DNA from: Clytia hemisphaerica
Taxonomy: Eukaryota; Cnidaria; Hydrozoa; Leptothecata; Clytiidae
DNA: 64,000 nucleotides
Direction: 5' to 3'
NCBI GenBank assembly: GCA_902728285.1
Contig: CACVBU010000024.1
Coordinates: 377,580 to 441,579 of the forward strand
The notes below the pieces were generated by a model. It did not search any database, had not been told where the DNA came from, and saw only the letters and a list, made by a program, of their open reading frames with translations. This document shows, piece by piece, positions 10,406 through 42,514 of this stretch. Within the stretch, counting starts at the first letter, position 1; every line of letters begins with the position of its first letter. A program made the position numbers and the translations under genes.

Positions 10406-10431
10406 GTAGGTACTGCAGTCCATTTATTTCA

Positions 10432-10665: not shown

Positions 10666-10689
10666 CGCCAGTCCCCAGATATTTTCAGA

Positions 10690-12642: not shown

Positions 12643-12883
12643 GTGCCAGATCAAATGTTCCAGGAAATAATAATATGACACCTTCAGGTTGACAAAAAAG
12701 GGTGAAGTCGCCAAATTAGGTAAACAAAAAGGTCCAATTCTGAATGAATATTGTAATATTGGAGTTGCTGAATTTTATAACTATTGCTAAATGGTTAGAC
12801 AGTTTTTAGTAATATAGCATATATTGTTCCTGGAAAATATTTCCCTTGATTAGCACAATTCTTTTCACTTATATAACACTTAG

Positions 12884-16749: not shown

Positions 16750-19700
16750 CTACAACCATCGTTGAAGAAGAGGTATATCTCTGGGCGGTAGATCAGTTGG
16801 CGCCCTCACCAAACACCCATAGTTCCAGATTTGGTGTTCTATTGTGTGTTGTCTCCGCAGTGTAAAAGCACCATTCTTTTGTCCACGTAACCATGTTCCT
16901 TTGTAGATTGAACCGTCTTTGAATTTCTCTTCACCAGACCCTTGTCGCTGAAATAGAATGAATAAAATATCATTAGAATTCTACTAAGGGATAATCAGAT
17001 GGTTTGAGATTTTTGGCGTGTGTAATCTTTCTATTGTCCTGAGCACAACGTCAAAATATTTTTACCTAAATATTTTCCAAAGTCGAGGTATTTAAATTAC
17101 AAGTTTTTGGCTTTCAGTAAGAAAACAATAGAATTTCAACGTAAGAACCCATTTTCAGAATTTTCAAATTGTGATATCTCGACTTTGGAACATAGTTACT
17201 CAAACATAATTGGAGGTTTTACTCAAACTTTCATCTTAAACCATCTGATTATCTCTTTAAGCGGTTAAATTTACACGTGGACCTTTTTACGAATTGAAAG
17301 TCCAAAATTTTCGCATGGGTTAATTTCGCCAAACAGCATCTTTTTCACCTATTTCTTCTTTCATTTTGCTGGAGGGTTTTTACCAAATTTTTCGCGATGA
17401 CTATATTTCGCGAAAAGGATCAAAATTCTTAAAAACCGCGAAAGTTTAATCAAGGTAAGATTTATGGCACAAAAAAGTTTGATTTCATATTTTCATAGCA
17501 GGAGAAGCCGAGCTTCAATTAAAAAGCACTACAGTAAATGCGCCGGACTTAAGAAGTTACCGTAGGATGGCGAGACTTTCTCGTTCCCGGCTAAACTTTC
17601 CTATTGCCATTTTACATCTAAAAAAGACCAAGACTCTTGGGATGTGGAATAGTAACTTAAATTGTTAGACGTTCAGTCTTGAGGCTGTAAGGTTTTGTCC
17701 AGGTGCAGCAGAAAAATTATTTTTGCTGGTACACCAGGAAAACAGGGGAAAGATCCCGAAAATGTGCCAGGAATGTCTCCCCGGGAGTGAGAAAGTGTAA
17801 TGATCCTTCGATTCTCGTTTCCATAACACTTAAATTTTTTTTTCTTTAAAAATGAAAAATCGACGGACTTGAAAATGCTATCAGTCCAAAAAGTTGCTTG
17901 TAAGCTTGTAATCTTTAGTTCCTTTGACATCAGCTAGCCCATTTATTTTTTGAGGAAGATATCAAGTAATGTAAATTCATACCATATCTTCCACAAACGT
18001 CCCTTCGAATGTTGAATCTTTGAGTTTTTCTTTTCCTTTCCCTTCTTTTACACCATTCACCCATTGACCTAAGAAAAATGTTAGAGGTATATAGAATGGT
18101 ACTGTATCTTTAAATTTAAAGTATGATAGATAAATGAGAGGAACATTATTGGTAATGCAATTCAATCAGACGGTGCTAAGCAAAGTTAGTGAGCATTTTC
18201 ATCTGATGGCTGTCGGCGGAGCCAGGAGTGAGAGAGTTTATCCCCTTTTCTATTTGCGCTAGACCTGGGAAGTCGAATGCTTAGGTGGAGCGCCACACCT
18301 ACTCTCAGCTCCCAGTAATTTACCGCATATACCCAATCTAAACTACTCATTCGCTGAGTTGACAGTGACCGGAGATTGAACCCCCAACCTGTAGATTGTA
18401 AGGCGAGATGGTCTAAATCAGTCAGCGAAGTTTAGGTTTTTGAAAGCAATGGACCGACTAAGCTACCCAGAGCTACCCGGATACTTATTAAAATTAAAAA
18501 TGGTAATTTGATTTTTGGTCAAACTTAAATAATCTTCAATGAGCCATTAGTAAAAAAGTGTTCGATGTCTAACATACCTTCATAAGAGTAGTTGTTGACG
18601 GGATCGTTCAATAAGCAAAGACCGTGTTGCTAGAAAAGATATGGAATGAAGTGAAATTATTAAATCAAAGCTTGTGCATAGTGAAAGATTGAAATGTTGC
18701 ATTTTTGAAAATGGAACTACTTTTGAGGAATTCTATCTACGCGAAATTTAATCCAATTAAGAAAAATACATCTATGGAAAGTGGAAGAAGAGGTCATACT
18801 TTTCCTTGCTGCCAATGACCATCACAAGACCATTGACCAGGTTTGGTGAGGATACCTTTTCCACACTGACAATTATCTTGCCATTCACCTATGAAGAGAC
18901 AAGCGTATCAAGTTACAGTACAAGATATGGGAATCCCAATGTTATCATACTAAGTCTTCAGGCCCGTAGGAAGCATTTTCATTTTGAGGGGGCAAAGTGA
19001 GAAATATAAACCGAGGGCCAGCCATGGTTTGGCCCTAGGGAGAACATTTCGCAATTTAAGGTGTCTAGATTGCTGGAAAAAGCATCTAATTAAAGGATTA
19101 TGTTCAAAATGAAGCCATTAATACAAGATTTTTAAAGCTATTTATTTTTGGAAAAATCTTTTTTTTTGGGGGGGGGGGCAAATGCCCCTGTCGCCCCCGG
19201 TTGCTACGGGCCTGGTCTTGTTTAGACCGGAGCTAATACAAGGCAATTCTCTGAATTAATCAAAAGCCAGACCGTAAGATAAATAAAAATCTTGATTGAT
19301 GTAAAGGAATTTGATTTGCTGCACTGATTACTTATTGAGGAAAGTATATTCGGAATTTATTTTTGTTGGGAAAATTTTTGTTGGAAAAAATTAGCCACTA
19401 AGCCGAAATCTGTTTCAGATTGATTGGGGAGGACTTACTCAGGCTTTATTTCCCCCGATATTTTATTTAGAATCTAATGTGATTGAATTTCAAAGGAAGG
19501 AAAGGAGGAATGTGAATTACCATTGTACATAGCACCATTTTTATATTTCATCTTTCCTGAGCCGCACATCTATAAAAGAAAAGCAAAGTCGAGATTTATC
19601 TACCAAGTAAATAAACACTTTTTTCGAACGCATTTAGGAACCAGGACTTCAACTTATTTTCTCGGCCCTAGCCTTGATTGGGCAACTAAATTGGGTCAAG

Positions 19701-22700
19701 CTGAGAAAAAAATACAGGGATACTACTAACTAAAGTATCTGGGATCGAAGAGATGGGCATTATTTATACGAAAAGAGAATGTATATGCCCACCTTCTATT
19801 AGCAAGAAGGAGGTTTTTCTACAAATGACCAGTTTTTAACTAGACTGGATTCGTTTATAATCCGTGTAATACAGTAACATGTGTGTAATTATGATAATAC
19901 CATAATTGTAACGGAATAATATCTGGAATAACCAGGAATAACTACAGGTTGTATACACTACAATTTATCCCTTTAATTTTTTTTCGCTTATTTTCTACTT
20001 TGTCTGATTTAGTCAACTTAGAATGTTAGACCTGTTTTTACCTTATTATAAAGAGAGAAAAAATACAGGGATAATACTAAGTAACATATCTAGAAGCCAA
20101 GGAGATTGGCATCATTTATACCATTTTACCTTATTATAATGAAATTCGCCATCATAAGTTGAACCGTCTTTCAATTCAAGAACACCAGAGCCATGCATCA
20201 AGTCACTTTGCCACTGACCTCTGTAAAAACCACCGTAACTGTACACCATCACGCCTTGTCCAATACGCTGTAAAAGAACGGAGTGAAGGTTTTTTTATTT
20301 TCATATAGGGTCTCAACGAATCAAAAGTTTCAAGGAAAGATTTGGTTAAGGTGGGAGTCACATGAAAAATTGAGAAAGATGATTTTTTACATTTTCCTGT
20401 ATAACTTTTGAACTTGAAGAGATTTTTAAATGAAATTTTCTACAGAGGTAACTTAACAATAGAAGATTTCAAAAATGTAAAAAAAAGTCTAAAAATAGCC
20501 AAGACGGGGGTAAAATCAGCCAGGGGGTAATGTACTGTGAAAATATTGTGTCAACGTTTTAGAAAAATCTACAAAACCTATCACAAAAATTTTTTTTGCA
20601 GCTTGTTAATATTTGGATAAGGAGTGTTATGAATGGAATTTTTTCTTGAAATTTCATTCCAGGGGGTCTGGAAACTAAAAAATGCATTTTTTGAATTTAG
20701 AAATGAAAAAAGTATTTTTTCAAAAATGTAATCCATTCATAATACTCTAGACCATAAATTGAATTTCTCCTGAAAACTTCAAGTTCATAGCACTTGTCAA
20801 TCCTGAGAAAACGTTGCCAAGGTGTGCGAAAACCCCCTGAAACCTATTTTGAGAAAACGGTCCGTAAAGTCAGAAGTAGATATATTATCTCTATTTCTCT
20901 GTAATAAATCGACCGTTTTACAAAATTCTTTCGCTGTTTGACTAAAATGGACTATAGTTCTACTTTAAATACTTTAAAAAAGGCTTTGAAATATCAAAAT
21001 AGTCCAGAAATTCCAAATTATCACTTTCACGTGATGTGCGCCAATCCTTAAAATTTTGCGCCAAACTGCCAAACTCCACGTCAACATTGATTTAATAAGC
21101 GGCAGGTACAAAATGCATAAAACATAATGCATATTGCATAATAGTAATGTGTAATTTACAGAACGATTTTATATTTTCTAAAACTCTCCTTTGTAGAGGC
21201 TAAAACCGTGAAACCCTGTTTAGAAGAGTTTCCTAAGTAAACATTCCAATCAGAGGGATTTCCCCAGACATGATATTTACTTTTCGAATTCGAACAAAAG
21301 AGAAAACATTCGAATCATAACAACAAAGGGTTTTCCGCCAGCATAAATAATAAGAAGATGCAACAGATCAGAAAGGTTTCCCCCTTCTTCTTTCTCAAAA
21401 AAGGTAAACACATTTAAACATTCGAATGTAAAATGATTCGAAGTCTATTTTCTTTGATCTAGCTTTCGCATTAAGCTCTTTACTTCATATTGGCTGGATA
21501 TTGGTTTATCTAACAAAAAGCATTCACATGGTTAATGCTTTGTAAGAGGGAAAACCCGTTGAAATTTGTTAGAAATTGTTCGAAAAGATCTCCGAGAAAA
21601 CCCAGAATAAAGATCTTGCTATAAAATTTACGTTTTCGAGTTTTCGCTTTCGAAAAGTAATATACGGAGGAGATATTTTCGTGTTTTTTCTACACTATAC
21701 TACATTCTGTAAAATACAACTATGAAAATCAAAATGGCGACAAGCATTTTCAGTGGATCATGGATTTTCTTCATCATCTAAAATACAGATTTACAGCTTT
21801 TCTACCCTTTATTTTCTGGTAGAAAATGGTATATTTGTTTTGTTGAAAGTAACATCTTTCAAATTCTCCTTATTGTAGACTCTAAAATTGACATTTTTCA
21901 AATATTATGCATTATGCATTATGCAATATGCATTATGTTTTATGCATTTTGAACCTGCCGATTTAATAAGTCAATTTAAATGTGTTTTCACAACAAAAAC
22001 CATATTTTCAATGTAATAGATCATCCTAGTATATTTTCCTCACTGATTCTGCCAGTTATAGGTTAATATAAAGTTGATCTGTTGTGATACAAGAATCCAC
22101 TTGGACATCTAGCCGTGCACGATTTCTTCGTGAATGTAAATAATCCAGCCAGAGGGTGGAGGGAGCGCCCCAGACCTTCAATAATTCATCACACACAATT
22201 GTTAAACCAGCCTCCAGGCTTTCAATTCCTTTAACACTTGGATCTTTAAATAGATACATCATTGGATATGCCTTTGGTCTTCGTCCTTCAATAACTTTTT
22301 CGGTGTCGTCAAACTAAGTTCATATCGAAAACGTTGAGTTTGAGAATCAAGTCTTTGGTTTCACCTAGCTCAAGCTTTCTTAGTTGAGAAGAATGACATT
22401 AAAGAGCTAAAAATGTCATCAGTCAATCCAACATTTCCAAATTAAAGCAGTTTTCATAGTGACAGCCTCCAAAATTTATGTTTTTAAAAATATCATTTCT
22501 TTGGTTACCATCTTTGATTACGTCATATTAGGAAATCCCGCGAAAAAAAGGCGGTATTGATTTAGACGCCCGAAAAGGGCGTAAAAAGATCTTTCGTTTG
22601 GTATGTCATGATCCTATGTTTAGATCAGCCATAAAGAAATCGGGCCCTAGCAACGGGTATGATTTTTCGTTGCTAAGGAAAATACTTTAGATCAGGGTCT

Positions 22701-25700
22701 AGAAAAACCCTTATATCTCAGGAAATATAAATGCTACGGCCTTAAAATTTTCAGAGTGTGTTCAGAAAGGGTATAGGGTCATAAAACGCGCAAAATCCCG
22801 AAATCGATAATTTTTTCACCAAATCTCAAAACTTCATGTGACTCCCACCTTAAATAATATAGGCAACTATATTATTAGTATGTTCAGTAAATTCGTATTT
22901 TAGGACGGTAATCTTTCTATTCTTTAGCAACAGAACGACAAGAAAGAAAAAAATGATCATTTATAAAGACATGAAGAAGTTGCAGTTACTTACTGACAAA
23001 AAAAGGCCCAAAAGCCCTTCAATAAATTAAATAGAATGATTCCACTGGACTTTCTAGAGAGTTTAGCCTCTGTCTCGAATGTTCTTAACTTTTCGTCATC
23101 AAATCTTAAATGTTCACATTCTTCTTAGCCTTTTCGAAATTATTATCCTTAGCTTGTTCTATGGATTTGGCTAGAAAAAGTCTGCGTGATATCATAATGA
23201 AGAAGTGGGTTTGAAAAATATAATCATACCATATCTTGCATCCATGTTCCTTCGTAAACATCTCCATTTTCGTATTCCATCTTCCCTCTGCCATCTTTCA
23301 AATCGTGCATCCACTGGCCTTCATACGAAACACCACCCGGTTGTGTGTACGTCCCCTGACCACTACGTTCTCCGCGGTCAAACTCTCCTTTGTATATTGA
23401 GCCGTCTGGGTAGAGTAGTTCACCGGTACCGTGGAATTTGTTGAATTTGAACGCTCCACTGTAAAAATAATTAAAATTGTTGGAGAGTCTGCACTCTTTA
23501 TGTAAGGAGTCAATGAACATGGCAGGGTTGCTAAATCATTGACTTTCTTCTGACTTTTACCCTTTTCCCAGCGCTGCTGGCATCATACGAGATTGTCTGA
23601 TTTTGTACAGAACCTAAGAGTGAAGAAGCCCTGCATCATGAATCCGCCCAAGGATTTCAAAAGCGGTAAATTTTCCTTTGCTCGGGCGTGAAGGCGCATT
23701 TGAGATCAAAGTTAAAAAGTATTGGCTTTTAACTTTCGTCGACAATATATTCATTCTATAGGGAATAGAGACAGGATTATACAATTCTTACGTGTATTCG
23801 TAGCCATCAGGCGTTACTAAGTGACCGTTGCCGTGTTGCTAAAAGAGTATAAAATGATTTTTAAAAGAATCGGGTAGACAGAAGCAGTGGAAAACAAATT
23901 GTCCATTTAAAACTTAGGCTGCTGGTATCTACTGACAGATTTGTGGTTCTTATAGATAAATATACTACCTGTGGTTTTGCAGAGGTCTGCGAATCAGACT
24001 ACTGTGTGATCAAACTTCAAAAGATCACAACTTGGTACAGTCCTTACCAAATTATCTTTCCACTGTCCTTTATATCTGTACCCATTCTTGCAGACAAGTT
24101 CTCCTTCCCCAACAATCTTATCGTCCATACAGAAACCATGGAAACTGTCGCCATTATGATATTCAATAATGACGTCACCGTTTTTGATACCATCTTTCCA
24201 CGTGCCCGTCACTTTGTCACCACGCTTGTTCGTGTAAACACCTTCGCCGTCTACAATGTATAAAATCATGGTCGAATTAATACGAGATTATTAATTATTG
24301 CGGTCGAATTAATACGAGATTATTAATTATTGCGGTCGAATTAATACGACATTATTAATTATTGCGGGATAGTATATGGCATTCCAAAGAAAGGGTATGA
24401 TAAGACATGCTCTTTTTTGACTTGGTATCACCAGCCGCAACTCATCCACAACTCATATGTTGTAGATTGACGCCACTTAAAGTTATTGCGGAACTGTTCC
24501 AAGGAACTAATGTCACTTGAATTTAAAGTAAAACACGTAAAACGTGATAGACCAATAAAGTGATAAAGAAATCTCTTGTAGGGATAGGCTACCATACAGG
24601 TGCTTTCGGAATAGATGTGGTTTACTTTTTAGAAAATATTTATTGGAACTAATTTTCGCGGGAATTAATATTCGCGGTCGAAAAAAAAAATCGGGAAAAT
24701 AGCATTTCGCGAGTTTTAATTTTCGTGGTTTTGCCCTTTTTAAGACAATTTTCTTTAATTTTCCTTAGGGATTTTTCAAATTTTTCGATAAAATTGGAAA
24801 AAATTGTATTTCGCGGGTTCAAAATTTCGCAGTTTTGCCAAAATTAATTCCCGAGAAAATTAATTCCAATAAGGTACCCGACAAAAACAGGATTTGTTAT
24901 GGCAAACAAATAAAGTTGTTGCAGTTAAGGACTCTGTTAGTGATCTGTGGTACCTTGTTTATTATCGAGCCATTGTCCTTCGTAATTATCACCGCACGCG
25001 TAATTCAAAACACCGTAACCATTTCGTTCGTCATCCTCCCATTCACCCTGTCAAAAGACACAGAAAATTAAGAATAATAAAGCTTCTAATAATACGCAAA
25101 AGCCCTTTCCAGCATAATGAATTTTGGTGTATAAATCGTTACTCTTGTCAAAGTCAGAGCTGAACACTTGATTGAACTGCTTTAAAGCACCTTAAAATAA
25201 CCTTGACATAAAATATGTCGAGCTATGATTCATGTAGATCGATTTGATTAGAGGGAGTTTATCCAAAGAATCCTACATTTTACTAAAAATAGACAAAGGG
25301 AACGGCAAATTTCATAAAATACGACAAATTTCGCCGTCCACAACCCCAATCCGGTTAGTTTGTACGTACCCCTACGAATTCATTCCTCTTTGTTTATCAC
25401 GGGAATTAACTACATATGGTTCAAAGAACGATAAATTACGCATGCGTGTTACAATGCAGGATTCTTTAGAGGAATAGACTGTTAGTAGCAAAATGACCAG
25501 AAAAAAAACAAAAATTGTCATTCCGATTCATTTATGCAAGTAGGTCATCATTAAAAACCAAAAAAGCTTTAAACTTACAATATAGGTGAACAGATTCGGC
25601 CACATTCCAGTTCCTTGGCCTTGTCTCTAAAAAGTGGAGAGGAAACTTATGTTTTACAAGAATTCAAAGGGTTTGAGAAAGCTCGAATAGTTATCTATCA

Positions 25701-26172
25701 GAGTATAGCGTCATCTAAACTTAGGCTCCAAACACTGGTCCCTGAAAAAAGAAAACTCTTGCTTTTCTAGGACATTTTCTTTCCAACATGTTTGTAGAGC
25801 GCTGAAAGACGCGGAGGATAATTATACCTGGAAGTATTGGTTTTTAAGGGTTTTCTTTTTACATAAGTGTTCTTGTCTCATATCAGACACATATTTCATA
25901 TCAGGACAGTGTCTGCCTATTGTTATATTGTGCTTATAAAAACAAAACAAAAATTTTCTTTTCCTCTTTCTGACCAATCTTGCTCCGCATTCGTGTCAAT
26001 CCAATGTGAAAAAGCTTGTGAATCAAAATTGATGAGTAAGCAAACACTATCACTCTTATTTAAAAACAAAACCTTTAAACAGCAAAACTAGTAACCAAAC
26101 GTACCTTGGCTTTGCAATAGAAACCAGAATAAACTGTTTCGTCTTTGTAAGTGAAGTTGGTCTTGCGAATGT
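16750..26172 (-). CDS. RhoGEF-MORN gene, exons 15-26: MORN repeat array
   Basis: Twelve exons encode about 17 MORN units of about 23 residues with the pattern Y-x-G-x-W-x-x-x-x-x-x-G-x-G. Clear ones are Y-E-G-Q-W-L-D-N-K-Q-D-G-E-G, Y-K-G-E-F-D-R-G-E-R-S-G-Q-G and Y-R-G-Q-W-Q-S-D-L-M-H-G-S-G. MORN arrays bind membranes or act as dimerisation and scaffold surfaces. Units 4, 5, 14 and 17 are degenerate. The final exon reads to TAG at 16750-16752. It also contains a strong GTGAGG donor at 16809, so an alternative form could splice on to an exon not seen here. In the sequence down to 14.1 kb I find no VPS9-like exon. Many junctions fall at the same two points within the repeat unit. Confidence 0.87.
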
Positions 26173-29100
26173 CTAAAAAGGAAACGATAGAGTTTGAGAC
26201 GAATACAGGAGAAGACAGCTTTTAAAAAATATTGGGAATTCCATTTTCTACTGGTTGTATAGCTCGGCTTATAGCAGGCTTTTAACGGTTTCCCTTTTTC
26301 ATATTAATAGCCCAAAATTTAGACAATGTTTGTCTTATACCATGGACGTTGGATGGATGTTACTTAGACGCTTTTGTTTATTTAACAAACTCGTAGTTCA
26401 ATTTAAAAAAAATCAAGCATTCCACCTCCTTGGTTACTAACTGGGCGTTCCACTATTTGAGTAAATCTACTTCTAATTTGGTTCTATACGCTTTTGGCTA
26501 TATTCTGAAAGTAAAACAAGCTTCAAGATGGTGGTGTTCGAGTCTTGAAAGATTTTTACTTCCCTACCACCCTACAGACATTGGTTGCCCGTAAACCTAT
26601 TTCTATTTTCTAGTTTATCACTAGCAGGGGGCTAAGCTTCCGTAGAATAATTACATGGGTTAGCCAAATATGTCAATGCCAAAGTTAATTGGAAAATGTA
26701 TCACTCCAGTGTACTTCCCCTCCAACTTATATTCTCTAAGAATATAACGTTGGAGAAAATGAAATCCAAACCTGTTTCTGTATTCTCTTTATCATTTTGT
26801 CCGTAAAGGTTTGATCGAATAGTTTCTCGTAAATTTTTTAGCCAAATCTTCTTCTCCCCAATACCGCCCACGTACATGGTGTAAGGGCGTTCGGGCGTAT
26901 AAATACCGATAGCATCTTTCTTGGCTGGAAATTGAAAGGGAAAAATATTATAAGAACAAAAGTCCTCGCCAAGAAGAACGCAACAAGATTGGAACAGTGC
27001 ACTGAAGTGAGAAACTTGACACAGTCACATTCTTAAAAAGATCGGGAGTAGTACTTACTCGTTTGAGGGTCTAATTCATGTAGATCTTCTATCCAAACGT
27101 TTTTGATTTCCAGTGCGAGTTCAACCGACATCTGACGCACGCCACTCTTCACTGCAAACACTAACAAGTCATTGAACAAAACACACTAAAAAAGGAGAAG
27201 CGAAAAATTCGTCTGTTTAAGAAATTTTACGAGGGAAGCATTACTTTCATCACTAGGGCTTCTGAAGTACATATTATAGTAATGAATCCTTCTTGACTCT
27301 TGCAAAACCCTCCAAGTCAATTCCGGTCCCCCATTTCTTTGGATTTCTTAAGATATTAAATATACATCAGACAACCAACTCCCTTGTGCACTGATACAGA
27401 ATCCTGAAATATGGAAATCTAGATCCATAGCTGATCCCAAATCCAGATCTTTTCAAATTTGTTACTCACGTGGTATGTCTTTTTACTCGTCATCAAGCAT
27501 ACATCTCCTTCGTGAACTAACGTACGATCTGGTGTGTAGTAGGCCTTAAGTCCTGTGATTTGTGTCTGTAATGCCTCTAGGGCTTTAGCGCATTGAGCTT
27601 GTTTTAACTGTTCGTTGATATATTTAGCAGACTTTTCCTAAAATACGAATTATCATAATGAGGAGTTTCATAACGACGACGAAAATTTCGTAGGGAAAGT
27701 CAGATAGCTACTATCTAAATCCATCCAAATGACAGTATAGAAACGACACCGCGATGCGCCACTGCCACAGGCCAAAGTACCTCTTCGACCTTTATAAATA
27801 AGATGAAGAAGATAGGGTGAAGATAATGAAAATAGAAAATTCAACCCCTCGATTCTATGATATCCAGGCTTAAAAAAATATTTTCAATTGGATCTCAAAG
27901 GGTTGGAAAAGCTATGATTTTTATTTTTTATTTTTGATGGAAAAAATTGTAAAAAAAATCTCTCCAAGGGCAGGAAGTTTTCTGAAAATCTAAGAAAATT
28001 TTTCAAAAATGTCTCTATAAGGGTCACTTTTTCAGATTCTGGAGGTCCGGTCCACAAATACCCGACATTCTTCATGTGTAAATCAAAAATAAGCCAGCAA
28101 AATCAAGCTTTTCTACACTAATCTTACCATCATTTCTTGTGCTTTGACCAGGTTTGAATAATCCGGATGGTCATTGTTGGTCTTTTTGATCAAGTCTTTC
28201 AATAGTAAAATGTATCGTGGTATCCTTTGTATCACCGTGATCAAATACGAAGGGAGAGTCAATCCTGGCACACATATCGGGTTACTGTAACATGCCTACG
28301 ATTAAAAAGTAACGAGGATTCAAAAAACAAACTTCTCCTGAAAAAAATTGGAGCTTCATCAGGGGGGAGCTTTTACCGTATTACTTCGAATAAACATCCC
28401 TCAATTGAAGAAAAAAATTCTTAATAAACGGCCCATTGGAATAAACACCTTCCCTCTCTAAAGGGCATTTATATGAAACCAGTAGCTGAAAGAAAGTGTA
28501 ACGCGAAGGAAAACCTAAGGTCTGTTAAGGTGACCTTAGTCGAAGATTATAGAAAAACGAAGCGAAGAAGGAAGCTTCTTTAAAGCGCCGCCCCTAAAAT
28601 AATAACACAAGAGAGTTTTGGCAAGCTTCACCTTGGTTTCTGTTCATCTTTAAAAGAATATTTCTCATTACATCACATTACATTAGAAGTGTTGACTTTG
28701 AAGGAATGGACTAAGTATACGAAAAGGATGGCATGCTACCCACATGGTAGGGCCGTTGGGAGCCTACGAATTCTACGCGATCACCGTTTACTGGTGATCT
28801 AGCGCCTTATACCGACCAACCCTTTGCTACGAAAGTTTTGGAATGATTCTCAACCGTGCGACCGAAGCGGGCATCGGGAGTATCGTGTTTGAAATGTGTA
28901 AGTATGACGTGACACCTCGCAGGATGTTCAGGTGAACTGAATCTAACCGAACTAAGCTTTTGAAGTGTCTAGCACTCTTGGCTCCCGATAATAAGAGAGA
29001 CATTTTCTCATACAGACTTGAACAGTTTTGAATAATTTTTTACTTGTGGTTTTAATAAAGGTCGTTTGGGAAATTCCCTTTGACCACTCAAGTTACTTTT

Positions 29101-32100
29101 GCACTGTTTTAGATTTATAACATTGTTATTCCTCAAAACAATTGACAACAATTCTATATCAATGATTAGAGATTGTATCTAAATAATACACAATCATTAT
29201 TAAGCAATTAATTTGATTAATTAGGGAAGTTTTTCATAAGAAAAGATTTAAGTGTTTTTCCACAATATTCTTTTTCATAAATCTCATTTGAAACTTTGAA
29301 ACGAGTGGAACCGTTTCAGGCTGTTTTATGTATCAGCCTTCTGTATAATTGATTGGTATGGTAAAAATATGAGCTACGAATCATCGTAAGAATAATGAGC
29401 TGAATAATATTTAGGTTTCTTATAAAAAAACCATATAAAATAACTCAAATACTCAGCAAGAATTCATAACGGATTGCTTAGAATCTCAACGGTCCTGCTG
29501 AGTGCTGATATATGAAGAATGCTCGCCTTTTCAGGACAGGACACTGTTTCCGCACGAAACATGAAATTATTTCTGATCGGCTTCTATGGTATCCCGTTGG
29601 CCCAAAGCGTTCGAGAAATCACAACTTCTGAGATATTTTTAAAACAGACAACGAAACTTAGAGCCCGTAACCGATTTTTAACCAGTCAAAGTCAAATGAC
29701 ATGGAGTTTTGTCAAATGGAGAAAGCAAGTGTGGAATCTGGCTAGTCTAGAAGAACTCTACAACAACAGGCTGAGTGAATCCGTAGGACCGTGGAAGCAG
29801 CCCAAGTGTCTAGACTAAGTGAAGAATAGATAAACGTAAACGCTATAACGCTGAAAGTATAGTAATGGAAATTATTTTTAGGTTGATGTTCCGTATGGCT
29901 AAAGTGTCTCACTGGATCTGTAACTTAGATGTATTTTACATACCGTTAGCAATGTTTCCAGATCTTTTCGTTTCTTTAGTTTCTGCTTGATCAATGCTTC
30001 ACTCGTGTCATAGTTCTTGCAGTACTCCGAATATGTCTTGAATTCGTTCTCCTGGAAAGGGGGATGAAATTTCAGTATTTCTAATATGTACATTTTAGCT
30101 ATATTATTTCAGTATTTCTAATATGTATATTTTAGCTATACTTCTCCGAGTAATATGAACACTGGAGACTCCATAATTTGAACACCTACGGGGAACATAA
30201 ATTTGTTAAAGTTATGAAAATTTCGAGTTATGAAGGTTGTTTTATAAGGCAATGTTAACTGAAAGGACAAGAAAACTTGCTCGAGTTAAGAAGACATTCG
30301 TGAGTTCAAGAATTAATGATGGGGATCCCTTCACATTTGTTTCATGTTTTACCGAGAAAAACCATCGTGGCGAGTTATATCTCAGAGTCTACAGACCGGA
30401 TTGAAATTTTGGCTGAGATTTCAAACAGAACATAAACAGAAATAAAGCAGGGTGAGACGAAAGGAAACCGACATTGTTTAGTGTTAAGTAGTGTTTAACC
30501 CTTCCTACCTTAGGCCCAAATTGTGTAATTATCATGCATGGTGATTTCCCCTTCATTTCGGTCATAAATCGCTTGAAAACTGACCTTATTTTTTTTCTGG
30601 GTAGTCATTTTACATTAAAGGAAGAAATTTTCACGGAATTTATAATTTAATTTCGAATTTTTTTGACAAATCCGCGAAATCAAATTCCACGAAACTAGAA
30701 TATTCTCAGGATTTAAAAAATCACCCCTAAAATTTATCAGGGCAAAAAAGGCCATACTGTAAACAAAATATTCTCTCAAAATGAAATTAAATTCCGCGAA
30801 ACTTCCGAATTTTGAGCTATGAACCGTAAAATTAGACTTATGCTGTTCCAAATTTGCATGATTTTTATGAATTTTGTCACCAGTCGGGCCTACTATACTG
30901 ATTGCACACTTAAATTGAATAACTAAACAACCAATTCGTGTGCATATACTCGTGGCACTGTCAAAAGAAATTCACATACATGGTTGATGAAAATATCACC
31001 GATACATTGTTCGTCTGACCAATCACTGATTCGTTCGAAGATTTCTTCTAATATGTCGCGGTTGATTTCCAGGATCCTGAAAATACAAATCATTATAGAT
31101 AACAATGAACGCAATAAAGATTTATGAAGTCATAAAGTTATCCGGTCCAAGAATATAAGTGACGAACATAAAATATATAAAATGACGAGTTTAGAGATAG
31201 ATAGATACGAGCCCTCCGAATGCATTCGGGATGGGTCCTACCCACGAAGGAGTATAGGAATCACGGCGCTGACAGACACTGCGACTTGACAGACGCGAGC
31301 TGCCAAGCCATGGCGTAAACCATGACACTCGAACGACACTGGGAGAGCGATGCTCACGCGAGGCCGAACCTTATAAGTGCCACGGCACGTCACAATGTTT
31401 GTCTAATCTACCCACACTCTTGTATCAGAGTAATGGTACCCAATTCTCCTCACATGGTATAGGTTGACCCGGGCGAAGGTATATTCACTTGCCAAGTGAA
31501 TCGTAGAGACACGGTGGGTATCGAACTAGGGCCTCCCAGGCGGGAGTCAAGGATGATAACCACTATACCACTGCGCCTACGTCCCAGTTTAGAGATATTC
31601 TGCAACCATTCAAACCAAGTGCATAACCTTCAAAGTCTTCCTATATATCATTATTGATTGTATTGATAAAAGAGAATGTGTGTAATGCAACAAATTTGAC
31701 CCGTTTCGCTCTTTAGCGGATATAAGCAACGTTCCTTCGTTCTTCGTTTCTACCCTTTAAATATCATTTTGGAAGAGAGAAATGCGCATCTTCTTTCCCA
31801 ATCATTTTAAGGGAAATATTATTGGAATTGACTTACTCGTCAATGTTGGCAAAGATCGATTTGATATCCTTTGCATCTAGTATATTGTTCATTGAAATCT
31901 TTCGTTTGAAGAGCTATAATTGGAGTGAATAAATGGTTTAATAATAAGGACAGCTTGTTAAGAGAATCCTGCAGATTCATTTCAATTTTAAAATGAATAG
32001 CTTGATACATTGAGAGATTCTATATTCGAAAGTCTAGAGCTTGACGACTAATTAAAAATAGTCCTATACATGTAAGGCCTAACAATCATTTGTTCAAGAT

Positions 32101-35100
32101 TTGTTTACTATTCCAACTCCGAAATCCAACGGTATGTTTGTTTTAGCAGGGTTACTCCAATATTAATCAGTAGGATTACTCAGTATTAATGATTAAAGAG
32201 TAATACGAGGTCAAAACCTTAGCGAAAACCTTATTGCAGTTGAGTCTCCATAACTCGAACACCCACGGGAACACAAATCTGTTTGAGTTAATGAAATTTT
32301 GAGATAAGGAGTAAAGAAAACTTGTCCGAGTTAAGAAAACATTCGAGTTATAGTAGTTCGAGTTAAAGAGACTTTACTGTATGTACACTCACTCACCAAA
32401 ACAATGATTTCCAATCCTCGAACGAACGTTCGTTCCGTGGTATAAAGTTCCAATGCGATGAGGGAACGTCGGTCCGAGGGAAAGGACGGCAGGTGTGTTG
32501 GATAACCATCAGTTAACAACACGAAAGGTTCACTCTGAAAAAGCAATGAATGGTTAAAATAAACTATTATCAATCTGATCGTCCAACGAATAACTAGCAA
32601 TAAACTTTCATTGTTTCAGCAAGAAAAAGACAGGAAATCTTATTGAATCGAAAATTGATGACTTCATTGATAGATGATACCTACCTTACTTTGGAAGCTT
32701 CGCATCAAAGGCAACGTTAACATTTTATGACTAGAAGTTGCCATATCGAAATTATTGGTGAATGGTGATTGCAACGCAGGACTCTCTAGACTCCAACGTC
32801 TTCGACGTGGTGCCCTCGGTGAAAGTTTTGGTAACATTTTGTATTTCTACTAAATTGTACTAACAATAAGGTAAAAAATTCGGCATAGCCCCAGGATCAA
32901 AATCTGAACTCTACTCTTGGGATGAGTGCCACCCAATATCTACTAAGAACTCTCTAAGTCAATTAAAAGTAACTTTGATGTCAGTAAAAGTGTGTATGAA
33001 TATTCAATAATTCTTCAATCTTAATCTTTTTTCTTCTGGCGTTTCATTCAAGCTAATCAACCATGCTTAAAAAAAACACAATCAAAACTAACGCATGCCA
33101 AATCACAACAAAATATTTTGTCTTATAACAACAAACAACATGAGATCTTGACTAAATGACATCTAGCACCAAAGCTGAACTAATATCATTAATCTATTCC
33201 ACAAGTAGCGATATCCGTTTGGTAGATTATAAAAGAACAGAATAATAAATAAGGAAAATTGTGGAAATAAAAAAACACAAGTTTGTGAGAAAGCTTCAAT
33301 CCAGTGGTAATTTTCTGTTTTCTTTTGCTGACAAGTGAATAATACTCTATAAAAAAACTTCAACTAAACATCTAAAAATCAATCCGATGATGATTTCAAT
33401 AAAAATATATATAAAGAATGTTGCAAGGGCTTTACAAAAGATCGATAAAATCATGTTATATGATCAAGCTCATGTGTAATGTAAACATGGGAAAAATTGC
33501 ATCTTGCATGTCTGAAGGTCAAACGAGAAGTTCACGTCAACATCTTCTACAGCATGAAGTTTATAGACCTAGGCTTTGCAACAACTAAATGAGAAAACAA
33601 GAGCTATAATACATCTCGATTATGATTTAGCCTAAGAGAAATCACTATCATTATAAAAATAACCACAAACTCAAAAGTAAATTTGCAAACGTTTTTTTTT
33701 TTGCCTAAAAGAGTTTACAGCCGGTAGTTTGACGGACGTTTGATCCTATGTAACACTACCGCCAATATTTTTTCCGCCATACAGTGCATATCCCACTTTT
33801 ACCATCCCTTTGTCTAACGGATGATAACATCGTTAATAATAATAGAGTAGCATCGGTATTGATGCTATCACTAAAACTAGTAAAATAGAAAGGTTGTACT
33901 TTTTCTAAAGCTCGATAACCTTTGTGCACAGGTAGTATAGGCTATTGAGCTAATCAAGCTTGCATACTTAATTGCTATAATGGTTAATTATGTGAATGAA
34001 ATATACTATTGTAAAGACTGCATAATACAAATAATATAAAACTGAATAGCAAGCACCTCACCAAAAAATGGGATTTTTGATTCCGTTTCTTGGTGAGTTC
34101 CACTTTGATGGTTTTCGTAAAATAGAAGCCTTTCAAGTGTTCTGACGCATATTCGATATTTTGGCTACTGCAAGAGCTTCAAAAGTTTAAAGTGACGTCA
34201 AAAAATCGGAGCCCGGAAATCTGGGCTCAAAACATTCTAAAAAAGTCGCCAAGTGGAATAGACGTTACGGCGTAGAAAAAAAAACGTGACGTCTAGTATA
34301 GGCTACCAACTGAAGTGTTCACCATAGATAGTAATATCCATTTTAGATCCAAGTTTTATAAATATTCCAATCCAATAACCGCTAAACGAACTTAAAAAAT
34401 CTTCAATTAGCTAACTCTCCCAACTCCCCAAAAATATACTAATAATTCAGTCCTTCGAGATGTTCGATCAGCTTCTTTAGGATTTTTTCGATAAACTTTT
34501 TACCACATATGCGTAGATGATGTTATCTATGCTAAATGAATCGTCTCTCAAAAAAAGAGGGATTATCTGGAAATTTTAGGGATATGAATCAAAAGCTGAT
34601 AAAGATTGAATTCTGTTATAAAAACAATGACAAATCTTTCCTACGTTTTCTCCAAGTACAATGGATCACATACATTTTGCTTAAATACAGATTTTATCCA
34701 TTTGAAATAGTTTTGCGTTGCCTACTCAGGAACGTAAGAAGGAATACGAAAGTGATAGACGGAAGAATGAAAAATGTGGCATAGTCATCCACTCTGCCGA
34801 TAAAGAGAAACTTTAGTATACATCCTCTAACGGACCTACGAACTTCTTAAGAGAATGCGTGCCGTGCGAGGAGTAATGAGAATCTACTCAGATATTGTGA
34901 GCATAAAAGTTCATGGTTTTGTGGAGGAGACTTTTAAAAGCTATGGGGCAACCACGAGTATGGTATGAGTGGTTACGTTTCAATTTTGCTCCGTAAATTC
35001 TATTTACAGTACATTTTCACATGTCAAAGTGATTTATCAGAATAATGATAAGTTTCGCCACCTTTTCATGATCGAGAAATAATTTAAACAAAGTAAAATG

Positions 35101-38100
35101 CCTTCGTTAAATTTACATCAAACTGTTTTAAGTTCCTTCTTCGTTTTCCACTACCGAAACCGTCAAATAAATTCTTCAAATTTTTCGAAAATACTGGTTG
35201 GAACTTACCGGTGAATTGGACTTTCTTGACGAACCAAAATCACTGAGTGGTAACGTGAACGATTTGAATCCCATTCCTCCAAAGGTTGGACGGCGATCTT
35301 TATCCGAAGGTTTACGCAAATCTATATTGAATATAAACATTGGAAATTTCTCTACTTATTTTCATTTCGATTTCATGGATTTTTGAGGGTACAAAAAAAA
35401 CAAAATGGTACAAAATAGATGGCTTTTGTAGTGAGTTCCATAGGGAATTTCCTTGAAGATCTAGGAGTAGTAATTTGAAACTTTTTATAGCACTGAGATG
35501 TTAAAAAGTGTGAAAAGGACCTGACAAACTCGTGAGACCAATTTTGCAGAGGTTTAGTAGACTAGGTCAATTTTACACATGTTACTAAGACTTAGTAAAT
35601 TAGGTTACTTTGAGAAACATTTTTGTTAGATCTATCAAATGAGGTTTTCAAAATCTGAAAGATAGCTCTACTAGTCTAGTAAACTAGTCGGTTATTACTT
35701 ATAACCTTATAATAAAACTGTCAATCAAATAGTGTAAACACTAATTAAATATTCAGCACGAGTGAGAGAAAAGGAAAATAACTTCCAACGCCTTTTTTTC
35801 TTCACCTAAAATCGTAAGGAGAGACATACAGATTTCTGTATGTCTGACCCGTGCGGGATTGCATTTATTTTTCTTTCTGTTTCTTACGTTTTTAGAAATT
35901 CTCATTTATTTATATGTTCCCATGTTCAATGTTACTATGAAATATCATTTAGTCAAAAAAGTTGGATGGTTTCTCAACAACCTAAAAAAAAGTTGTAAAA
36001 TTAAATAACGTTTTTTGAGGAAGTAGCTTCTAGTCGTTGAAATTCAGAAAAGAGACGCAACTTCACCCCTTCGATTCTTTTTATTTGGAGCTTGATTTTT
36101 TGTATATGGGTCTGCTTTCAACGACTAGTTTACTAGTCTATAGCTTTACCAACTGATCAATCAAAATTTACACCAAAGTAAGAATTGGATGATACTGGCT
36201 TTTTCCAACATTTAGGGAGAACAGACTGTTAACTAATGACATTGAATTAGTTATTTGCAGCATGGATATCCAGCCTAGCCTAACTTACCTCTATCCGTTG
36301 AAAAGGTTTGCGATGTTTTAAGGCTGACTCCAGTCACAGGTGCTGCAGGCTTCTTGCTATCGTCATCAACTAAACTATACATTGAATTGGTCTTGAATAG
36401 GGCGTCAGTATGATCTAATTCTCCTTTGGTTGTTGCAGGAGAAATATTCTGGTCAGCGTGAAGAGTTCCAACAATGTCTTCACCGACATCTACACTTTCA
36501 CCATCACCAGCAACATCATCATCACCAAATATGCTAGATCCATCGGATTCAGCGTCGCTTTCTCCACCGTCTGCTTGGTCTACAAAAAATGACGTATAGT
36601 TCTTTATAAGCAATATTGTTGACAAGTAGAGGGAGAGGAGAAGGAGGATCGTAAAGTCTTCTAGCAAAAATCAGAAAACACATATTTCCTATAAGCAGAT
36701 TCATGTAAAAAAGTCACGAGAAAACGCTCTGATTGGATGATTATTGCGCACATAAGAATATTTTTTTCAAAATGAGTTAAATCTTTGCATGTCTCAACCA
36801 ATCAGAGCTTTATCCGGCGTTTTTTCGTGACTTTTTTTATAAGAATCTGTTGACAGAAAATTTGTGTATTGGATACATAAGATACAGATCTATGTCTACC
36901 GATAAGATGTAAGTTGCTGCAATAGTCTGTACAGCGGTTTTGATAAATCTTCGAGATGTTATTATAAGTAATCGCGGACCAGAGCAGAGCTAAGTATTTC
37001 AACTTTCAATGTTCAAACTGCTTAATACACCTCCTTCTCACAGACCCGATAGGATTTTTAAGCCAGGGGAGGTAAAAATAATGAAACTGGATGGGGATTG
37101 ATATTCCCATATTTTTTTATGGCTGGGGATTCGAATTCCATTGTTTTCAAGTCAGAAAATCTTTGTAGTTACCAGATTTTTTTATTGGATTATTTTCAGC
37201 AGTGACAAAAATTAGAGGATAAATTTCCACTGGGGACGATATTTTGGATAATTTTTTCAAGGTTTTGAGCTTGTTCAAAATAGTTTGGCTGGTTAAGCTT
37301 TTCACATTGATTGTTGAAATTTAAGCATCGTTTTATAGATCTGGATAGAACATCATTATCATGATATTTAAAAAAAATTCTCACCTATCTCGAGATAGTC
37401 ATCATCCAACTCATCGACATAGACCACCATTTTGCCATCTGTATTATCATCGCCTTCGCTTTGATGTTGGTGTGGCTTGTCCTTTCGTGGAGCTATAGTG
37501 ATCACCTATACAATGAATCAATGATATTCAAAAAATCATATTCAGCTAAGAATCTGATGAACAATTTTCTGACAGAAGAAAACTTTCGAGGTCTAAAATA
37601 AAGAATGGAATCGGACAGCTGTAAATTATTTTTGAATATCAACATTTTTCACAACATCAGCTCGCTTGTTGAGATAATGTACAATCTATCTAAGGTAAAT
37701 TTTACAACTTTACATTGCTATAATCTAGTCTTTTTCTAGAGTTCGGTACAACAAATTATCAAGAAAATTCAAATTACCTGCATCGCTTCACCAGATTTGG
37801 TTTGTTCCACTGATAGGTTCACAACAGTGCTGGATTGAAATTGTCTGTGTCTGCCAGAATCTGTCAAATGTTGCCTTGGAGGAGGATGTTCCTCAATCAC
37901 TCCAAAAGCCTTTTTGAACCTACCAAAAACATTGGCAAATGAAAATGCATTGGATTCTTTTTGAAGTTTTTTAGCTTCAGTTCGATCTATGATATCATAG
38001 TTATTTAAGATATCTTCGTTTTTAGAGTGCAATCTCTTTTTGCCGGGTGACTTCTTCTTAGGACTTGGTGGAGCCAGCTTTGGAGAATCTTCAGATTGAA

Positions 38101-39652
38101 TTTCTGTGGTGTTTCCATTGCTAGATGTTTGAGTTTCAGGTGTTGTGATAGCCATGTTTTGGCCAATACTGGGTAACATTTCTTCCTCATCTTCGTCCCT
38201 ACTTACAGATATTGAAGGTGTTAAATTGAAATTCACTTTACTGCGTGGTGAAGGATTTTCTATGGATGATTGATCAGCATTGTTGTCAATATTCGGTGTT
38301 TCTGATGTAACTTTAACATCATCTTCAGCATTTTGAATTATATTTGTTTCAATGATTGTGGCTTCAGTAGGAGTGGAATCCTCATTGATATTTTGAACAG
38401 GATTTAATTCACTTGTCTCTGGGGTTGGGGTCGATATTACTGGATCTTTGTCAACCAAAGAAGCTCTTACTACACTGATGTTTGTTTCAGATACTCCTTC
38501 AACAGTTGATGACATTTCTGGAGCATTTTCATCAACAGTGTCCATTCTTGTAAGGATTTTCGCTTCTAAAACAGCATCGGACTCCATTTGGCTAACATCT
38601 GAATCACAAACTTCCAAAATGGTACCTTTTTCAAGATTTTGAGCGTCCTGTTTGTCTGTATCGACGAATTGACCAAAATTGATTTCACACGAGCCTTTTA
38701 CAACAAAATCATTTGAAATATCATCTTCAATAACGACTGGCTTGTTTCTTGATAGACTAATTGGCACATCTATGAAGAAAAAAACAGATCACTCTATCAA
38801 AAAATGAATTGTTGTAATAATGCACAGCTTGATTTAAATCTGTTAAAGTTGTTTATGTTTATCTAAAGATAATCGTTTTCCAAGATGAATCTGTCAAAAT
38901 GGACAGTCTGTACTTTATAATTTGGCAAATTTCGAGAGAAAATACATGATAGTTTCCCCTTTTTGCAAATCTTCCTCTAAGTAGGTTCATGATATCCTTA
39001 TTCCTTAACTTATGGAATAGATTAAAGGAACCAGATGAAAAGGAATATTTATTCATAGCTACCATGGGGCCGTCACTGAACAATCAACTAGAAACAAAAC
39101 AGATACAACTTTTCAGAAATGGCATTACTTGAATATACCCTAAAGAATAATTTTATATGCATCATTTACGTTTTTATCGATTTCTTTGTATAGAGCTTTT
39201 ATGAATGAATTTTTTACTTGTAAATAATTAGGCAATTTTTTCAACATAGAATTTTGATAGAAAGTTTGTGATTTTTTACCAAAGGAATTCATTACAATAC
39301 TCCTTTCAGACTTAAGTTAAGTGGACCATTGGCCAATAATCAAATTTATCATAACAAAGCCTTAAAAACGGCTTACTGTTTGAAAGAAATTGATCAGAGT
39401 TGGGTTATTAAAAAAAACATAAGAGTTTCTAACAAATTGTTAAAATGTCATACTTGAGTCATCATCACCAGAATCTGATGATTCACCAACATCATCAACA
39501 TCTAGTGTTGGTATTGCCACAATGCCATCACTGGAATTGTTGTCGACCTCGTTCTCTGTTTCTATAGGTGGCAAATCATCTAACAGAGCTAAAGTGATTG
39601 GATCATCTTGTCGGGTACTGATGACAATTTCATCTTCTAGTGTTAAGCTCAT
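16750..39652 (-). CDS. RhoGEF with DH, PH and ~17 MORN repeats (alsin-core-like)
   Basis: One gene of at least 26 exons, joined by GT..AG sites and frame: 39454-39652, 37778-38769, 37385-37505, 36289-36579, 35209-35321, 32685-32846, 32397-32534, 31837-31913, 30980-31076, 29944-30051, 28128-28284, 27470-27637, 27059-27185, 26772-26924, 26105-26172, 25579-25626, 24954-25047, 24048-24250, 23792-23838, 23230-23458, 20130-20267, 19521-19569, 18800-18888, 18578-18629, 17983-18068, 16750-16947. All joints keep frame except 29944/28284, where 3n+2 bases are missing. The product is about 1,400 residues: acidic tail (1-645), DH (about 648-850), PH (about 850-965), MORN (about 980-1380). It should activate a Rho-family GTPase at a membrane or the cytoskeleton (family inference). 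DH-PH-MORN is the order found in alsin, but no RCC1 or VPS9 is seen. The start ATG at 39652 opens a clean first exon. Confidence 0.85.
18170..18482 (-). repeat. tRNA-derived SINE (intronic)
   Basis: On the minus strand, TAGCTCTGGGTAGCTTAGTC (near 18475) gives an A-box-like sequence and GGGGGTTCAATCTCC (about 18371-18385) a B-box. A further GC-richer body runs to about 18170. The box spacing is longer than in a true tRNA, consistent with a SINE head carrying an internal duplication. Confidence 0.5.
18959..19214. mobile_element. DNA-transposon MITE, CAGGCCCGTAG termini, 5-bp TSD
   Basis: The ends CAGGCCCGTAG and CTACGGGCCTG are inverted and flanked by GTCTT on both sides (18954-18958 and 19215-19219). 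The element is 256 bp, with poly-G/poly-C patches inside each end. The 5-bp duplication supports real transposition; the superfamily is not certain. Confidence 0.8.
20346..22854. mobile_element. 2.5-kb element with TTAAGGTGGGAGTCACATGA termini
   Basis: The left end TTAAGGTGGGAGTCACATGA (about 20346) is inverted at the right end TCATGTGACTCCCACCTTAA (to about 22853). The terminal TTAA on each side is what a TTAA-targeting (piggyBac or Kolobok-like) element would leave. No transposase frame is visible, so it looks non-autonomous. It is interrupted by the 21100-21960 element and lies in the intron between exons 20 and 21 of the RhoGEF-MORN gene. Confidence 0.6.
21100..21960. mobile_element. 861-bp TIR element with perfect 10-bp target duplication
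   Basis: The left end CGGCAGGTACAAAATGCATA is inverted at the right end TATGCATTTTGAACCTGCCG. The flanks carry ATTTAATAAG at 21090-21099 and again at 21961-21970, an exact 10-bp duplication. The length suggests a Mutator-like (MULE) non-autonomous element. The terminal TGCATAATGCAT tracts are AT-rich and lengthen the hairpin. It is nested inside the 20346-22854 element. Confidence 0.85.
24271..24366 (+). repeat. tandem repeat, 32-bp unit x3
   Basis: Three units of GTCGAATTAATACGAGATTA... start at 24271, 24303 and 24335 with one mismatch in the third. They lie just upstream (on the minus strand) of the exon 24048-24250. Confidence 0.85.
24641..24871. mobile_element. MITE, TATTGGAACTAATTTTCGCG termini
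   Basis: The left end TATTGGAACTAATTTTCGCG is inverted at the right end TTAATTCCAATAA. The interior is a run of TTTCGCG/CGCGAAA words. A copy of the left part lies at 48025-48250. Confidence 0.7.
25844..26079. mobile_element. TTAAAGG MITE, copy 3
   Basis: The termini TTAAGGGTTTTCTTTTTACA and TAAAAACAAAACCTTTAA flank a core with CAGGACAGTGTCTGCCTATT. It is inserted in the intron between exons 25579-25626 and 26105-26172, ending 25 bp before the latter. Confidence 0.85.
26772..32534 (-). CDS. RhoGEF-MORN gene, exons 7-14: DH and PH domains
   Basis: The DH domain starts at R-R-S-L-I-A-L-E-L-Y-T-T-E-R-T-F-V (CR1, conserved Glu). It continues D-I-K-S-I-F-A-N-I-D-E-I-L, then after exon 10 P-S-Y-L-I-T-V-I-Q-R-I-P-R-Y-I-L-L-L-K-D-L (the CR3 signature, Q-R-I-P-R-Y-x-L-L-L-K), and H-P-D-Y. 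The PH domain runs from R-T-L-V-H-E-G-D-V through V-L-F-N-D-L-L-V-F to the closing helix with its invariant Trp, K-K-I-W-L-K-N-L-R-E-T-I. Conserved catalytic-surface motifs look intact, so an active exchange factor is expected. Exons 10 (29944-30051) and 11 (28128-28284) do not join in frame. An 8-nt microexon at about 28632-28639, flanked by CAG and GT, would restore frame and is the best candidate seen. Confidence 0.85.
28632..28639 (-). CDS. candidate 8-nt microexon of the RhoGEF-MORN gene
   Basis: The minus strand reads ...GAACAG|AAACCAAG|GTGAAG. Eight bases between AG and GT would supply the missing 3n+2 bases between exons 10 and 11 and add Lys-Pro plus two bases that complete Ser. The upstream pyrimidine tract is weak. 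It is a hypothesis based on frame only. Confidence 0.25.
28751..28822 (-). repeat. tRNA-Leu-like sequence / SINE head
   Basis: On the minus strand a tRNA-like stretch reads GGTCGGTATAAGGCGCTAGA, matching the D-arm/A-box of leucine tRNAs. A perfect 6-bp anticodon-like stem (ATCACC / GGTGAT) around a 7-nt loop containing TAA follows. A weak B-box follows. The acceptor stem does not close, so a SINE or pseudo-tRNA is favoured. It is a GC-rich island inside an AT-rich intron. Confidence 0.4.
30073..30140 (+). repeat. tandem duplication, ~34-bp unit x2
   Basis: TTTCAGTATTTCTAATATGT and the following ATTTTAGCTATA occur twice in succession with one substitution. Confidence 0.75.
31195..31590 (-). 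repeat. tRNA-derived SINE with (TATC)n tail
   Basis: Minus strand: GCGCAGTGGTATAGTGGTTA (A-box, about 31580) and GGCCCTAGTTCGATACC (B-box, about 31516-31532) resemble Asp/Glu/Gly-type tRNAs. A GC-rich 300-bp body follows, and the 3' end is TATCTATCTATCTC at about 31195-31205. A pol III head plus microsatellite tail is the standard SINE layout. Confidence 0.75.
32235..32381. mobile_element. pogo/Tigger-like MITE
   Basis: The left end CAGTTGAGTCTCCATAACTC is inverted at the right end GAGTTAAAGAGACTTTACTG. CAGT..(A/G)TCTC..TAACTCGAAC termini are typical of mariner/pogo-type MITEs. A decayed relative spans about 30160-30330. Confidence 0.6.
32685..39652 (-). CDS. RhoGEF-MORN gene, exons 1-6: acidic disordered N-terminus
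   Basis: Six exons encode about 626 residues dominated by Asp, Glu, Ser, Thr and Asn, with acidic runs such as S-G-D-D-D-S-S and D-E-L-D-D-D-Y. Exon 2 (37778-38769) alone gives 331 residues. It holds a basic patch P-S-P-K-K-K-S-P-G-K-K-R and a compact motif, S-F-A-N-V-F-G-R-F-K-K-A-F-G, the only hydrophobic segment. Exon 5 has R-R-P-T-F-G-G-M-G-F and exon 6 the very basic P-R-A-P-R-R-R-R-W. No RCC1-type beta-propeller repeats are present, unlike vertebrate alsin. Low complexity and Ser/Thr-Pro sites suggest a phosphorylated linker. Exon 6 is placed after a TAG-TAG acceptor at 32847-32849, the only choice that avoids an immediate stop. Confidence 0.75.
36696..36849. mobile_element. short hairpin MITE (CAGATTC..AAAAAGTCACGA termini)
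   Basis: The left arm CAGATTCATGTAAAAAAGTC continues to GCTCTGATTGG. The right arm is its inverse, CCAATCAGAGC through GACTTTTTTTATAAGAATCTG. Arms are about 45 bp with a short loop. It lies between exons 3 and 4 of the RhoGEF-MORN gene. Confidence 0.75.
37026..37262. mobile_element. truncated MITE related to 10107-10405
   Basis: It shares ACACC(T)CCTTCTC(A/G)CAGACC, GGTAAAAATAATGAAA and ATGGCTGGGGATT with the 10.1-kb copy. The right inverted terminus is missing. The GACGATATTTTGG tail is also shared. Confidence 0.65.
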
Positions 39653-42040: not shown

Positions 42041-42514
42041 GGTCTACTGTATAAGTAACCTTTCCTTTATATTTCATTGAAAGGAGGTTGTCACATTCAT
42101 TTGCGGCAAGTTTTTCCACGTGCTGGCGACTTACAGTAGACATAACATTAAATTACACCGGTCTTTTGGAACTGAGTTTTACCAATCTCTACATCCCATA
42201 TTGATATATTTGTTCTCAAATGATAACTGAAAAGGCAAAATTAAGTTCCAATTGACATTACTAAAGTGGTACCTTTCTTATAAATTATTCAATAAACGCC
42301 ACTTTCTTTTAAACGCCCCCCTTTGAGTAACACCCCTTCTAAAATCTAAAACATTTAATGAGCACCGAGCATTTATTCAAATAATAAGGCACTGACATTA
42401 GATCAACTTACGGTACCGATTTGGAAAGAATAAGAAAAATTGACACTCATTTTTAAAATTTTTCATACTGTTTATCAAGCGCTTGAGGAGGTTTTAACAG
42501 TGTAGGTATAACAG

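Follow-up and report, generated by a model that had tools for sequence, protein, structure and literature searches.

A predicted Dbl-family RhoGEF with a 17-unit MORN tail and without RCC1 or VPS9 domains in Clytia hemisphaerica

Gene model and its surroundings

The stretch of Clytia hemisphaerica DNA analyzed here (the window, 64 kb) contains, on the minus strand from 39652 to 16750, a predicted gene encoding a RhoGEF (DH) domain, a PH-like region, and a long array of MORN repeats. A splice-aware model of this gene consists of 26 exons joined in a single open frame of 1404 amino acids. The frame opens with an ATG at 39652 and closes with a stop codon that ends at 16750. These coordinates and the number of exons agree with the original prediction. 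The exons of the final model are as follows:

39454..39652, minus strand: exon 1, ATG and acidic N-terminus; in-frame stop 16 codons upstream
37778..38769, minus strand: exon 2, acidic Ser/Thr/Pro-rich region; coding score 60.5
37385..37505, minus strand: exon 3, acidic region
36289..36579, minus strand: exon 4, acidic region
35209..35321, minus strand: exon 5, linker; supported by splice and codon signals only
32685..32846, minus strand: exon 6, basic linker (RRRRWS); hand-added; acceptor (-0.6) weaker than any other in the model
32397..32534, minus strand: exon 7, DH helix 1 (CR1, conserved Glu)
31837..31913, minus strand: exon 8, DH; hand-added, brings back IFANIDEIL
30980..31076, minus strand: exon 9, DH
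29944..30051, minus strand: exon 10, DH
28128..28295, minus strand: exon 11, DH CR3 with QRIPRYILLLK
27470..27637, minus strand: exon 12, end of DH (conserved Asn), start of PH
27059..27185, minus strand: exon 13, PH
26772..26924, minus strand: exon 14, C-terminal Trp helix of PH; weak donor (0.8)
26105..26172, minus strand: exon 15, start of MORN unit 1; acceptor 1.9 (fair), donor 3.9 (good)
25579..25626, minus strand: exon 16, MORN units 1-2; hand-added, brings back the 23-aa register
24954..25047, minus strand: exon 17, MORN units 2-3
24048..24250, minus strand: exon 18, MORN units 3-6
23792..23838, minus strand: exon 19, MORN units 6-7
23230..23458, minus strand: exon 20, MORN units 7-10
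20130..20267, minus strand: exon 21, MORN units 10-12; 46 aa (the length of two repeats), begins and ends in phase 0
19521..19569, minus strand: exon 22, MORN units 12-13
18800..18888, minus strand: exon 23, MORN units 13-14; weak donor (-0.2)
18578..18629, minus strand: exon 24, MORN units 14-15
17983..18068, minus strand: exon 25, MORN units 15-16
16750..16947, minus strand: exon 26, MORN units 16-17, C-terminal tail, stop; AATAAA 334 nt downstream

The exons were predicted by dynamic programming over splice-site and codon signals, with no exons forced and with a codon table derived mostly from the gene itself (15 of 17 training pieces). This first run yielded 25 exons; 23 were retained, two were rejected, and three (32685-32846, 31837-31913, and 25579-25626) were added by hand, the last two of which restore DH and MORN motifs. 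One rejected exon, 31454-31599 (minus strand), occupies the place where exon 8 supplies DH residues and overlaps a sequence at 31450-31590 (minus strand) that is tRNA-like by eye, with A-box and B-box-like motifs, and is perhaps a SINE in an intron; Rfam and tRNA (ARAGORN) scans of the window, this place included, were empty. The other, 22176-22313 (minus strand), splits MORN unit 10, into which it would insert 46 aa. Its open reading frame, with phase 0 at both ends, has no Pfam match; being in frame and predicted by both runs, it may be a cassette exon, a chance occurrence being the other possibility.

Because the codon table of the first run came mostly from this gene, the program was retrained on two pieces of the neighboring trehalase gene only (535 codons). 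The region then scored 67.5, with 18 exons, of which 14 matched exons of the model exactly and 4 were extra. Random-end controls reached 16.4 at best on the plus strand (12 draws, of which 8 gave a valid path) and -1.8 at best on the reversed sequence (12 draws). Since the score of the region far exceeds the control maximum, the gene is not explained by chance. The trehalase-trained run missed 12 of the 26 exons, including exon 15 and seven of the eight DH-PH exons (7 to 14); the evidence for these exons is therefore homology and the first run, and the join between PH and MORN receives no support from the retrained program. Exons 5 and 6 are backed by splice and codon signals alone. Coding scores are negative for exon 26 (-3.2) and near zero for exons 8, 16, and 24.

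The following features were also found in the window:

768-3117, plus strand: PA14-domain-like gene in pieces (E 0.00023, short of the cut-off), presumably resembling fibrocystin-L
5729-5911 and 7155-7362: tandem arrays of ~20-21 bp, same family, in opposite orientation
25843-26087, in an intron of the RhoGEF-MORN gene: repeat with copies at 11374-11617, 62295-62446, and 4727-4831 (pairwise identity 80-92%)
43201-43615 and 49991-50355: long fold-back palindromes (self-complementarity 91% and 85%), perhaps MITE-like
55092-57960, minus strand: trehalase gene (two open reading frames match Pfam at 1.9e-76 and 3e-39; best PDB match a trehalase, 6e-52)
62773-63165, minus strand: retroelement reverse-transcriptase open reading frame (RVT_1 1.9e-08)

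Domains of the predicted protein

The N-terminal part of the protein (aa 1-626) is acidic and has no Pfam match. In the first 640 residues, Asp and Glu make up 18%, Lys and Arg 10%, and Ser, Thr, and Pro 26%; residues 561-640 carry a net positive charge. The Pfam RhoGEF/DH profile matches aa 653-830 with an E value of 9.4e-51 over profile positions 2-180 of 180, which corresponds to a complete canonical DH domain with CR1-CR3. An intact DH domain with the motif Q-R-I-P-R-Y-x-L-L-L-K had been predicted, and the motif is present as QRIPRYILLLK. NCBIfam gave no match.

When the DH-PH part was compared with PDB, 73 sequences were found at E<=10, and 7 of the best 60 align to query residue 327 or beyond, i.e., through the PH region. 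The best matches were P-Rex2 (1.8e-24), intersectin-2 (2.4e-24), FARP2 (4.3e-24), ECT2 (2.7e-22), and FGD6 (6.6e-22), with P-Rex1 also among the best. Identity within the DH domain is 60/195 to P-Rex2 and 55/195 to intersectin-2 (ITSN2), i.e., 28-31%. The glutamate of CR1 and the asparagine of helix 6, which are catalytic in DH domains, are conserved in the alignment to these two proteins. In CR3, a lysine of intersectin-2 is replaced by threonine and the following proline by valine; P-Rex2 likewise has the threonine but retains the proline. The DH domain is of the ordinary Dbl type. While P-Rex1/2 and intersectin-1/2 are the solved structures that the DH-PH part resembles most, the additional domains carried by these proteins (DEP/PDZ in P-Rex, SH3/EH/C2 in intersectin) are absent from the Clytia protein, which has the MORN tail in their place.

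The PH domain is less clear. The C-terminal Trp helix expected from the original prediction is present (KKIWLKNLRETI), but Pfam PH matches stay below the cut-off: PH_alsin, RHG20_PH, PH_13, and PH_16 match the region with E values of 0.0025-0.021. PH_alsin is the best of them (E 0.0025; 18.1 bits versus a cut-off of 40), and the next PH profiles have E values of 0.0071 and 0.0095.

The same protein matches Pfam MORN with an E value of 1.2e-51, 11 stretches passing. A register search that favored 23-aa steps, and whose outcome needs the hand-added exon 16, places 17 MORN units at aa 986-1376; 14 of the 16 spacings are 23 aa, one is 24, and one is 22. This bears out the earlier estimate of about 17 repeats. 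Units 1, 4, 14, and 17 score weakest. Comparison of the MORN part with PDB gave 32 matches, the closest being MORN1 proteins. MORN1 of Toxoplasma, Trypanosoma, and Plasmodium likewise consists of long uninterrupted arrays of 23-aa units; unlike the Clytia protein, MORN1 proteins have no GEF domain.

Eleven introns lie within the array. Base 27 of the repeat is the site of six of them and base 7 of another two. Six introns in the same position were never obtained in 200000 trials with uniform placement and were obtained in 4 of 200000 when sites were restricted to positions after G; 8 of the 11 observed junctions come after G. Since the program had no knowledge of the repeat register, the shared intron offset supports the exon model. 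It also supports growth of the MORN array by duplication of intron-bearing units or exons, given that 6 of 11 introns share the same base of the repeat. A duplication unit of two repeats (46 aa), hinted at by the intron spacing, was rejected, as repeats at even distances are no more alike than those at odd distances (difference -3.1, reached by 4779 of 5000 shuffles).

Relation to alsin and alternative readings of the locus

Neither RCC1 nor VPS9 was detected in the 1404-aa protein (Pfam, E<=1). The flanks on the minus strand were also searched, as translations with stop codons written as X: neither the downstream flank, 6752-16749, nor the upstream flank, 39653-49650, had any Pfam match (E<=1), RCC1 and VPS9 included. 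As a positive control, the same procedure applied to 22751-32748 recovered the split DH domain (7.1e-20) and MORN (2.3e-13), with just a weak RHG20_PH match (0.095) for PH. A well-conserved RCC1 or VPS9 domain within the ~10-kb flanks should therefore have appeared; a divergent one might not. A Pfam scan of 12000-21997 on the plus strand was empty. Thus, the domain content expected of the joined protein (RhoGEF and MORN, with neither RCC1 nor VPS9) was recovered by Pfam, PH remaining below threshold, and the absence of the two end domains holds for the protein and for ~10 kb on each side.

In animals, alsin (ALS2) is the protein usually discussed as linking DH-PH to MORN, and ALS2CL also has DH-PH followed by MORN. 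Alsin is described as consisting of an RLD, DH/PH, eight MORN repeats, and VPS9, and its MORN/VPS9 part is involved in self-association (PMC8773251). The Clytia protein shares with alsin the order in which DH-PH is directly followed by MORN. The two differ at their ends, where alsin carries RCC1-like and VPS9 domains and the Clytia protein neither, in the number of MORN repeats (eight versus 17), and in the DH domain, which is divergent in alsin and canonical in the Clytia protein. The genome (417 Mb, 951 contigs) was searched in a limited, nonexhaustive manner, which revealed six VPS9 places on five contigs. No MORN match above noise was found within ~20 kb upstream of these places, or up to 30 kb for the pair on contig C472. 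The home-made MORN model used here recovers 11 MORN open reading frames of the window above the best chance match (5.7 bits) but not exon 15, which is short (4.2 bits); small MORN exons standing alone upstream of the VPS9 places may therefore be missed too. A genome search with PH_alsin gave no match, nor did it in its controls, and so it says nothing either way.

The original prediction considered that the gene might be a relative of alsin or ALS2CL from which the RCC1 and VPS9 ends were lost and in which the MORN array doubled. The order of domains is that of the middle part of alsin (PMC8773251), PH_alsin being the best PH profile mildly favors a link, and the failure of the limited genome search to find an alsin elsewhere would fit if the gene were an alsin remnant. 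However, PH_alsin lies far under its cut-off, with little lead over other PH profiles, and the DH domain is strongly canonical, whereas the DH/PH part of alsin has a mean identity of 12.5% to its 16 modeling templates (PMC8811474). Moreover, there are 17 repeats rather than 8, the acidic N-terminus has no Pfam match, and the stop codon comes directly after the MORN tail. Descent from alsin is thus disfavored by the sequence, we consider it unlikely, and the Clytia protein is probably not a shortened alsin. What stands of the earlier reading is one RhoGEF-PH-MORN gene model that lacks both RCC1 and VPS9, with about 17 repeats and with domains of Rho type rather than Rab5 type; of the two origins it weighed, descent from alsin and an independent fusion, the former is weakened by the canonical DH domain, the PH_alsin score, and the lack of MORN signal above noise in the 20-30 kb read upstream of the six VPS9 places.

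Two further explanations concern the integrity of the gene and the activity of its DH domain. The model could have merged two adjacent genes, one for a RhoGEF whose end would lie near 26.7 kb and one for a MORN protein with its start near 26.1 kb. Exon 14 has a weak donor and a frame that stays open to a stop at ~26.7 kb, and both exon 14 and exon 15 were absent from the trehalase-trained run. Yet the intron between these exons is just 599 nt long, the splice sites of exon 15 are fair to good and its phase fits, and exon 15 lacks an in-frame Met; the MORN part has its first one in exon 16, within unit 1. Two genes therefore seem very unlikely. Alternatively, the DH domain might be catalytically dead and kept for GTPase binding or scaffolding, the main work, e.g., axonemal, being done by the MORN rod. 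The Lys-to-Thr and Pro-to-Val changes in CR3 relative to intersectin-2 point in this direction, as does the fact that many of the 32 PDB MORN matches (such as RSPH1, MORN3, FAP266, and FAP207) are axonemal proteins. Against it, the same threonine occurs in P-Rex2, and the P-Rex proteins do catalyze exchange. In addition, the DH domain matches its Pfam profile very strongly and over the full length, and no exact X-box consensus occurs in the 1.5 kb upstream of the ATG (a weak test). We regard a dead DH domain as quite unlikely.

A RhoGEF joined to a MORN rod

Overall, the combination of a RhoGEF with 17 MORN units looks real and uncommon, as far as sequence can tell. The explanation that we consider probable is one gene encoding a Dbl-family RhoGEF with a MORN tail, separate from alsin, whose MORN rod dimerizes or anchors the protein and so places Rho-family activation at a scaffold. 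DH-PH units catalyze nucleotide exchange on Rho GTPases, and the one encoded here would exchange GDP for GTP on a Rho-family member. Rac or Cdc42 may be likelier substrates than RhoA, solely because the nearest solved DH domains are those of P-Rex and intersectin. The 17-unit rod would dimerize the protein or dock it on a cytoskeletal or cortical scaffold, fixing the site of GTPase activation. The acidic N-terminus, together with the basic stretch that immediately precedes the DH domain, may be a regulatory and possibly autoinhibitory region. Because VPS9 is lacking, no VPS9-type Rab5 exchange activity is expected.

The membrane scaffold envisaged in the original prediction is doubtful, given that MORN repeats have been reinterpreted as protein-protein (dimerization) modules (PMC7725318). 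In the available text of that source, MORN1 proteins form antiparallel dimers via their C-termini, and the structures do not support membrane binding.

As to origin, the DH-PH and MORN combination would have arisen apart from alsin. Caenorhabditis elegans TAG-52 (C02F12.4), which may have DH, PH, and MORN, may share the architecture of the Clytia protein, so "lineage-specific" is unproven as a description of the latter. TAG-52 is referred to as a putative guanyl-nucleotide exchange factor; the word "MORN" is absent from the text available of the paper, in which tag-52 mutants showed no difference in salt learning (PMC12851583). In the literature on MORN-RhoGEF architecture, alsin papers aside, no DH-PH-MORN protein without VPS9 was recognized among the matches listed, as far as their available text goes. 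A broader view, which we hold only tentatively and somewhat short of even chances, is that the gene represents a distinct subfamily of animal Dbl RhoGEFs apart from alsin, with a 17-unit MORN rod that grew by exon duplication and that directs Rho-family GTPase activation to a cytoskeletal scaffold; to our knowledge, vertebrates have no such DH-PH-MORN subfamily.

A joint of DH-PH and MORN with an ordinary DH domain and without RCC1 or VPS9 would let the role of this pairing itself be studied apart from Rab5, and it would open the question of whether MORN rods act as dimerizing anchors for GTPase activation.
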